From Brumimicrobium glaciale (GTDB lineage: Bacteria; Bacteroidota; Bacteroidia; Flavobacteriales_D; Crocinitomicaceae), in assembly GCF_004152935.1 (NCBI RefSeq), contig NZ_SETE01000007.1, forward strand, positions 1-64,000: DNA of 64,000 bases. Direction: 5' to 3'. The translations under genes and the position numbers were made by a program. The first letter of the stretch is position 1, and each line of letters opens with the position of its first letter. The notes under the pieces are model-generated. The model was not told the DNA's origin. It did no database searches and saw only the letters and a list, made by a program, of their open reading frames with translations. Below, in pieces: positions 40,567 to 48,925 of the stretch.

Positions 40567-40909
40567 GGTAGATTGGAGGGAAGAGAGAGGGGAGATTAGA
40601 GTGAGAAAGAGAATGATAGCGGTAAAACAGAATGAGAGGGAAGAGTGAAAATTAGAGTGAGAAAGAGAGTGAGAGCGGTAAAACAGAGTGAGAGAATAAA
40701 ACCAGAGCGCAGAAAAAGGCTTCGAATCATGGTAGATCGCAGGTTCAAGCTTTTAGATTTCAATCTTGGCTTTGAGGAATAATAAAGTCCAGGAGACGCA
40801 TTTAACAAAACCTTCTTCTTCCCTGCGAATCTCTGCCCCTCCGCAAATCTCTGCGCCATTCTTCTTAATCACAACCCACCCCAACCTAATCCTTTCTTAT
40901 TCCAAAAAA
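40567..40909. other. Repeat-bearing intergenic region
   Basis: No gene is supported. Two copies of a 44-nt repeat lie at 40595-40638 and 40651-40694 (three mismatches between them, period 56). Positions 40822-40857 carry a CTCTGCG-type element with several partial repeats (CTGCGAATCTCTGCC and CCGCAAATCTCTGCGCC); similar elements are scattered in many bacterial genomes. Confidence 0.5.
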
Positions 40910-47423: not shown

Positions 47424-47546
47424 TATAATTGTTAATGGTAAATTATTAATTATTAACGAGGTTTGGTAAAGGTGATTTGGTTTGGGCGATTTGATGGGCG
47501 TTTTGGTAAGGGCGATTAGTAAATCGCCCATCAAACCGCCCCAAAA
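47424..47546. other. Intergenic region with nested inverted repeats
   Basis: Arm GGGCGATTTGATGGGCG (47484-47500) pairs with 47525-47541 (16 of 17 bases), and GGGCGATT pairs with AATCGCCC within it, so two alternative hairpins exist. No T-run follows, so I do not call a classic terminator. Confidence 0.5.
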
Positions 47547-48352: not shown

Positions 48353-48383
48353 AAGAGCTTTCGAGAGGAGGCTCTTTTTGTTT
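48353..48383 (+). terminator. Rho-independent terminator after the peroxiredoxin gene
   Basis: AAGAGC with GCTCTT (48353-48358 and 48371-48376), 12-nt loop, T-rich tail. Confidence 0.7.
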
Positions 48384-48479
48384 TTGGGGTATTTTGAAAT
48401 AACAGGAATTGGAATTGCTATAATCGAAAGTATCCAAGCGCTGATTTATTTTTCGAAGGAATATATTAGAATCATTACA

Positions 48480-48820
48480 TTCTTACAATACACAAGGCTT
48501 TTTTGATTTTATAGAACCATCAACGCTACCAAAAGGAATATGATAAAGATTAACAAGAAAGGATTGAAGATCCTTAATAACTCCAAATTCCGAGTAAAGC
48601 CTTTGTGTTCTTGCAGAACACTAGTCTTTTTTTGATTTTACAGAACCTTGAACGTTTCATAAAGAATATGATAAAGATCAAGAAAGGATTAAAGATCCTT
48701 AACGACACCTAATTCCGAGTGAAGCCTTTACATTCTTGCCGAATGTTAGGCTTTTTTACTTTTACAGAACCTTGAACGTTTCTTTGAAACGCTCAGACTT
48801 CTATAAAAGCAAAAAAGCCT
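48480..48820 (+). repeat. Tandem stem-loop repeat array with T-runs
   Basis: Three degenerate tandem units, spacing about 129 and 124 nt (TTTTA.AGAACC core at 48506, 48635 and 48759). In units 2 and 3 a hairpin AAGCCT-TT-stem-loop-stem-T-AG(G/T)CTT is followed by six or seven T; the inner stem is GTGTTC/GAACAC (48605-48621) in unit 2 and ACATTC/GAATGT (48730-48746) in unit 3, that is, three base pairs changed with pairing kept. A shared second hairpin AAGGATT.AAGATCCTT lies in units 1 and 2. Unit 1 has lost its partner strand. An inverted homologous copy is the tRNA-Arg trailer. Confidence 0.72.
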
Positions 48821-48840
48821 TCCCGAAAGGGAAAGCTTTT
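48811..48840 (-). terminator. Terminator after tRNA-Arg (bidirectional)
   Basis: AAGC and TTCCC pair with GGGAA and GCTT around a GAAA loop (one internal mismatch), T-run on the minus strand beyond 48815. Confidence 0.8.
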
Positions 48841-48848
48841 ACTCTTCT

Positions 48849-48925
48849 TGGTGAGCCCGAAAGGATTCGAACCTTTGACCGCCTCCTTAGAAGGGAGGTG
48901 CTCTATCCAGCTGAGCTACGAGCCC
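48849..48925 (-). tRNA. tRNA-Arg (anticodon TCT), CCA encoded
   Basis: Cloverleaf reads GGGCTCG acceptor with CGGGCTC, A discriminator, T-arm GGTTCGAATCC and anticodon loop CTTCTAA (anticodon TCT). The 3' CCA is present in the DNA (48849-48851), unlike the other two tRNAs here. It reads AGA and AGG codons. Confidence 0.96.

Follow-up and report, generated by a model that had tools for sequence, protein, structure and literature searches.

The window analysed here is the whole stretch of 64,000 nucleotides from the marine bacterium Brumimicrobium glaciale (contig NZ_SETE01000007.1, positions 1 to 64,000). An array of tandem repeats lies in it between a peroxiredoxin gene, which has its own terminator at 48353-48379, and tRNA-Arg(UCU) at 48849-48925 on the minus strand. 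Tandem Repeats Finder placed the array at 48475-48782 with a period of 125, 2.4 copies, 80% matches and a score of 386, and the tandem units described in the first-pass annotation are therefore real. The limits of 48480-48820 given there were found to be too short, as the array continues unbroken through 48848 into the tRNA gene. Both hairpins described earlier, GTGTTC/GAACAC (48597-48633) and ACATTC/GAATGT (48722-48757), are present with T-runs beside them on the plus strand, as is the second internal hairpin AAGGAT...ATCCTT at 48559-48575 and 48684-48700. Of the three units proposed, two carry these hairpins and the third (48475-48504), at the end far from the tRNA, keeps a worn hairpin and nothing else. 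The complete unit is the tRNA-proximal one, and only AATCCTTTC is left of the tRNA tail copy in the units of the window.

The features are listed below, where R1 denotes the covariance model built from the unit.

48849-48925, minus strand: tRNA-Arg(UCU), source of the copied 3' end (ARAGORN; Rfam tRNA, 67.8 bits)
48849-48868, minus strand: tail of tRNA-Arg(UCU), GAATCCTTTCGGGCTCACCA (sequence)
48811-48840, minus strand: P1, terminator hairpin with T-run immediately 3' of tRNA-Arg, first arm of the predicted four-way junction (sequence and fold)
48748-48820, minus strand: P2, long inverted repeat with a T-run arm, an A-run arm and the apical hairpin TCTGA...TCAAGG (inverted-repeat finding and fold)
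48722-48757, minus strand: P3 of unit 3, the ACATTC/GAATGT hairpin, which corresponds to the tRNA terminator in inverted form (covariation; R1 match over unit 3 at 48683-48757, minus strand, 89.9 bits)
48708-48719, minus strand: conserved core of unit 3, CTCGGAATTAGG (invariant columns of unit alignment A2)
48684-48700, minus strand: T-arm-like hairpin of unit 3, AAGGATCTTTAATCCTT, joining the inverted tRNA 3' end to the next direct tail (alignment and covariation)
48636-48654, minus strand: right arm of P2, second copy, CGTTCAAGGTTCTGTAAAA, in an internal unit without P1 and without the P2 left arm (sequence)
48597-48633, minus strand: P3 of unit 2, the GTGTTC/GAACAC hairpin (R1 match over unit 2 at 48558-48632, minus strand, 95.3 bits)
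48583-48594, minus strand: conserved core of unit 2, CTCGGAATTTGG (alignment)
48559-48575, minus strand: T-arm-like hairpin of unit 2 (alignment)
48475-48504, minus strand: P3 hairpin of unit 1 in worn form, at the array end away from the tRNA (array start at 48475 in Tandem Repeats Finder)
48811-48876, plus strand: 3' end and terminator of tRNA-Arg read backwards, fitting the covariance model of the unit (R1, 26.3 bits, E = 0.0041)

No Rfam family was found to match the array, in agreement with the annotation; at the gathering score and up to E = 10 we obtained only chance matches of the microRNA type to the palindrome. Two simple assignments were rejected. The array is not part of the peroxiredoxin gene, which ends at its own terminator, and the relatives of the array adjoin other genes. 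Tandem small-RNA genes with their own promoters find no support, since the linkers that join the units show no conservation from one species to another.

Two other repeats were observed in the window, namely an inverted repeat (GGGCGATTTGATGGGCG... / ...AAATCGCCCATCAAACCGCCC) at 47462-47545 upstream of peroxiredoxin and a degenerate tandem array of AGAGTGAGAAAG at 40598-40707. Strings like the latter also occur 3' of tRNA-Leu(CAA) at another locus (L101).

Anatomy, covariation and predicted fold

A complete copy of the element is about 130-180 bp long, contains no gene and starts directly 3' of the tRNA-Arg gene. Read on the tRNA strand, the unit consists of the tRNA tail, a trailer, P1 with its T-run, the left arm of the inverted repeat, the apical hairpin, the right arm with its A-run, P3, the core TCGGAATTCGG, a T-arm-like palindrome (GGATC...AATCC) and a fresh tRNA tail in direct orientation, which begins at this palindrome. 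P3, core and palindrome together form an inverted copy of the terminator, the trailer and the tRNA 3' end, as R1 matches the reversed tRNA-Arg 3' end both in the window and in B. oceani (C1:131334-131407, minus strand, 35.1 bits). The overall arrangement is thus A - inverted A - A, and both of its junctions fall at natural palindromes. The core TCGGAATTCGG is non-tRNA sequence that is kept in other families, and the arms of P2 differ in sequence among relatives while their pairing stays. P1 on the tRNA strand and P3 with its T-run on the plus strand have the form of intrinsic terminators. GTTAAGG-like strings, to be compared with the integron attC boxes GTTRRRY / RYYYAAC, were seen by eye in some units only.

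In eight flanks (L003, L050, L063, L066, L111, L128, L153 and L159) the new tail shares 16-18 of 18 bases with the tail of the tRNA at the same locus, which is the target-site duplication expected of MITEs and non-autonomous integrative elements; full tail copies also occur in L181, L182 and L186. The tail copies fit the tail of their own tRNA better than the tails belonging to other loci (p = 0.0009). In genome G094, the tail present at the ACG locus belongs to the UCG tRNA of that genome. In L066, L128 and L153 the distal tail is itself followed by another terminator.

Two variants of the architecture were observed. ATGCTTG replaces TCGGAATTCGG in several other genera (L117, L128, L147, L151, L152 and L153, in tandem in L152), and a 60-bp insertion with a hairpin (CCGTAGCGAAGCAAGCTCATGAAGAC) lies between P2 and P3 at different tRNA-Arg loci of two species (L006:1440-1500 and L054).

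The first-pass annotation had proposed that pairing is kept through matching base changes, and this held in an alignment of 11 units from 4 genomes with explicit structure and 500 shuffles. Covariation was counted on a 75-column core only, as the sequence alignment of whole elements is too diverged for a usable full-length covariance model. Paired cells amount to 93.6% against 87.7% in the shuffles and double changes to 20 cells against 6.4, neither value being reached in any of the 500 shuffles; sliding the partners against each other abolishes the pairing. The inner three pairs of the P3 hairpin occur as GUG/CAC, ACA/UGU, GCA/UGU, GAG/CUC and AUG/CAU.

RNAfold predicted the same four-way junction in 28 of 34 first elements, against 57 of 620 dinucleotide shuffles and one of 30 flanks of other tRNAs in the own genome, counts that describe rather than test the fold because the elements had been chosen by eye beforehand. 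All stems differ in sequence between genera. The first, complete copy in the window has a predicted energy of -75.4 kcal/mol on the tRNA strand (z = -8.4), where it forms this junction, and -59.6 kcal/mol on the opposite strand (z = -5.4).

The annotation had read the units as small-RNA or terminator units on the plus strand; we assign them to the minus strand together with tRNA-Arg. The tRNA strand was found to be the more stable one in 27 of 31 elements, although over half of the difference is accounted for by composition (-3.4 of -5.9 kcal/mol in shuffles). Interior GU pairs number 48 on this strand against 16 on the other. After correction for composition, but not for the relatedness of the elements, the strand difference remains at p = 0.01 for the whole element and p = 0.0003 without the terminator arm. 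These comparisons of predicted folds suggest that selection may act on RNA made from the tRNA strand.

Distribution, arrays and spread among tRNA-Arg loci

A covariance-model search, the check proposed in the annotation, returned homologous covarying copies in related genomes. Matches to R1 were found in seven of ten genomes of the genus Brumimicrobium, which belongs to the Crocinitomicaceae within the Flavobacteriales. Further matches came from additional genera of this family and from outside it within the order, and the relatives span at least five Flavobacteriales families. At E up to 0.01, twenty-three loci lie directly behind tRNA-Arg genes of three isoacceptors (anticodons ACG, UCG or UCU) and three lie behind a stray tRNA-Arg tail with an island between locus and gene; four more are cut by contig ends and one has the distal tail alone. 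None of the loci at this threshold lies behind any other tRNA. In the own genome an element with the CGGAATT core is present at all three tRNA-Arg genes and at none of 30 flanks of other tRNAs. The DNA search likewise returned units behind tRNA-Arg(ACG) on contig C4 of the own genome, tRNA-Arg(UCU) in B. oceani, tRNA-Arg(UCG) in G001 and a stray tRNA-Arg tail in G003. The presence is patchy over the 72 tRNA-Arg flanks of the family, many of these genes being without the element. Our literature search found no description of the element, and no viral contig or plasmid was found with the tested patterns or query.

Two further structures behind other tRNAs of one genome (G000) were observed. A look-alike with a terminator, a long T-run/A-run inverted repeat and a second hairpin, lacking the TCGGAATTCGG core, follows tRNA-Ser(UGA) (L103; C1:531152-531236), and a worn second tRNA-Val with a terminator follows a tRNA-Val pair (L079:1740-1900; C6).

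The number of copies at a locus ranges from 1 to 7. In three Brumimicrobium genomes, where the orthologous loci are marked by the same peroxiredoxin gene, the length differs by the number of units. Inner units that lack P1 and most of the left arm and start near the apical hairpin occur both in the window and in no fewer than seven further arrays, including those of B. oceani, G001, G004, G007, G169, G034 and G025. The two tandem elements of G100 are clearly distinct from each other and both end in a full tail, as is expected for successive insertions.

Exchange was observed between families. Genomes G230 (family f1, behind tRNA-Arg ACG) and G094 (family f3, behind tRNA-Arg UCG) have 3.09 kb in common at 99.6% identity, in a block that starts at the tRNA and holds the element together with genes for LemA and a DUF2207 protein. 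The cargo (L189:8006-11097 and L194:7461-10192) is shared at over 99% identity between tRNA-Arg 3' ends of two Flavobacteriales families, and G094 has a third copy at its ACG locus. As the tRNA tails of G230 and G094 are not the same, each recipient kept its own. No recombinase is present in the common block of 3 kb, which may itself have travelled as a larger island and carried the element along. In the tree, the elements group partly by locus, partly by genome and partly across genomes, the support of one cross-genome pair being inflated by the shared 60-bp insertion. The ACG and UCG elements of G003 cluster with a support of 100/99, a grouping which we read from the sequences as probable exchange between loci within one genome.

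Gene islands use the same site. The tail and the element lie behind an island in G003, G004, G007 and G169, and the right ends of islands, TCCTCCAAAAAGTTTGAAC followed by the tail, recur and are unlike the ends of the element. Recombinase genes were seen in such islands. A large serine recombinase gene (PF00239, PF07508; L191:13230-14861, G094 C9) belongs to a neighbouring tRNA-Arg island of about 24 kb; its frame runs into the 3' end of tRNA-Arg(UCG) on the opposite strand, and the island ends at a repeat of the tRNA-Arg(UCG) tail (L193, about 10860). Islands also lie between tRNA-Arg(UCU) and its element in L168-L170 (G004 C23:96307-120051) and L026, and their tRNA-proximal gene was judged by eye to be a candidate tyrosine recombinase with an arm-binding domain.

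Origin of the element and relation to known systems

The annotation had named an inert duplicated terminator as the simplest rival, and this is right in part, since the unit does copy the tRNA terminator in inverted orientation. The tRNA 3' end would have undergone tandem-inversion duplication through template switches at the palindromes of T-arm and terminator, and quasi-palindrome correction rather than selection would keep the pairing. The A - inverted A - A order with both junctions at natural palindromes speaks for such an origin, as does P3 with its T-run, a good plus-strand terminator that faces the peroxiredoxin gene. That gene, however, is already terminated, and tRNA-Arg alone is used, whereas all tRNAs contain such palindromes. 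The non-tRNA core shared by several families argues that the origins were not independent, and neither the core nor the specificity for tRNA-Arg nor the horizontal sharing of the G230/G094 block is explained; we regard this account as rather improbable. Another possibility, which we also think unlikely though somewhat less so, is an RNA that functions for the host, in which read-through transcripts of tRNA-Arg carry the junction and the T-arm hairpin as a trailer or small RNA that controls tRNA-Arg maturation or acts in trans. The bias in stability and GU pairs towards the tRNA strand, part of which survives the correction for composition, agrees with it, and so do the conserved single-stranded core and the occupation of all three tRNA-Arg genes of the own genome. 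It accords less well with the strong terminator immediately 3' of the tRNA, the loss of half of the junction in internal units, the variable copy number and the many tRNA-Arg genes of the same family without an element. The units might also be stationary scars of past integrations of large islands in tRNA-Arg, with neither mobility nor function of their own. Islands do use the site, leave the tail and element behind them and have recurrent right ends, but retention of one four-way fold and one core throughout an order is not expected of debris, and the ends of islands and element differ; this we consider very improbable.

Because it recurs behind tRNA-Arg across Flavobacteriales, the element has the look of a hitherto overlooked parasite or partner of tRNA genes and not of a plain terminator duplication. 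The reading that we favour, and to which we give roughly even chances, is a palindromic mini-element specific for tRNA-Arg and of common origin, which passes from one tRNA-Arg 3' end to another and accumulates at them. It would be moved by a recombinase acting in trans or, along with the gene islands inserted at this site, by recombination between tails. Each insertion would rebuild the tRNA tail and bring a terminator, and the host would tolerate it because a complete tRNA is left and a terminator supplied; excision would give a circular junction GGATCNNNAATCC-tail-TAAGAATAAAAGC. Copies would accumulate through repeated insertion, as in G100, and through tandem duplication of the right half, as in the window and at least seven relatives. 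The element would be transcribed together with tRNA-Arg in read-through transcripts, and this would explain the conservation of the fold at the RNA level. Against the mini-element stands that no recombinase is encoded in it and none could be tied to it, and that no clean orthologous empty site was found. In Brumimicrobium the three tRNA-Arg loci are usually all occupied and share their neighbouring genes, so that vertical inheritance fits as well. A stronger version combines a gene-free selfish palindrome moving among tRNA-Arg 3' ends across the order with a four-way RNA that would control maturation of the host tRNA through anti-tail/tail pairing; this combination we hold to be distinctly improbable.

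Several known systems share parts of this anatomy. Bidirectional intrinsic terminators likewise have GC-containing hairpins and T-runs on both strands, whereas the element has in addition a long stem, a conserved core, a T-arm-like hairpin and tandem arrays. MITEs are also short, gene-free and built of inverted repeats with a short direct repeat at their bounds; for the element no parent transposase was found, a single tRNA family is targeted and the direct repeat consists of tRNA sequence. Snap-back products (tandem inversion duplications) have the same A - inverted A - A order with palindromic junctions and are young and independent. In contrast, the element carries an order-wide shared core, is tied to tRNA-Arg and did not arise independently at each locus, the non-tRNA core being common to families. 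Genomic islands that target tRNAs, tycheposons included, enter at the 3' end of the tRNA gene and restore the tRNA through a duplicated tail, but they are of kilobase size and carry genes, unlike the gene-free element of about 130-180 bp with the same manner of insertion. Tycheposons are named among such islands in PMC10872708.

The nearest precedent is provided by the tandem units behind tyrT/tyrV in E. coli with the RttR (rtT) RNA (RF00391). These units are spaced by 178 bp (L180), and each closes with a copy of the 3' end of that tRNA and has an anti-tail before it (GGGGAAGGAT ... AATCCTTCCCCC). The tail copies of our relatives correspond to the upstream tRNA 3' end copies of the RtT units, but the loci lie behind tRNA-Arg and not behind tRNA-Tyr with an annotated small RNA. 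RttR further differs in its unrelated sequence, in a predicted fold that is not a four-way junction and in having an annotated RNA and a small protein, whereas the tRNA-Arg element has the core TCGGAATTCGG and no open reading frame. R1 did not match the E. coli tyrT/tyrV repeats, and RF00391 gave no match to the array at the gathering score or among the matches up to E = 10. The element therefore shares the tail/anti-tail/tail logic of tyrT/RttR and fails the tests for a common family. Control of tRNA maturation or action in trans has been proposed for RttR, and to our knowledge the tyrT repeats and their RNA have so far stood alone as a peculiarity of a single tRNA locus. A family that spans an order and follows this logic with a different tRNA, sequence and fold makes the origin of such repeats accessible to comparative study. 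It also bears on whether they are parasites or regulators of tRNA genes, and on why the 3' ends of tRNA-Arg genes are hot spots for gene islands in Flavobacteriales.
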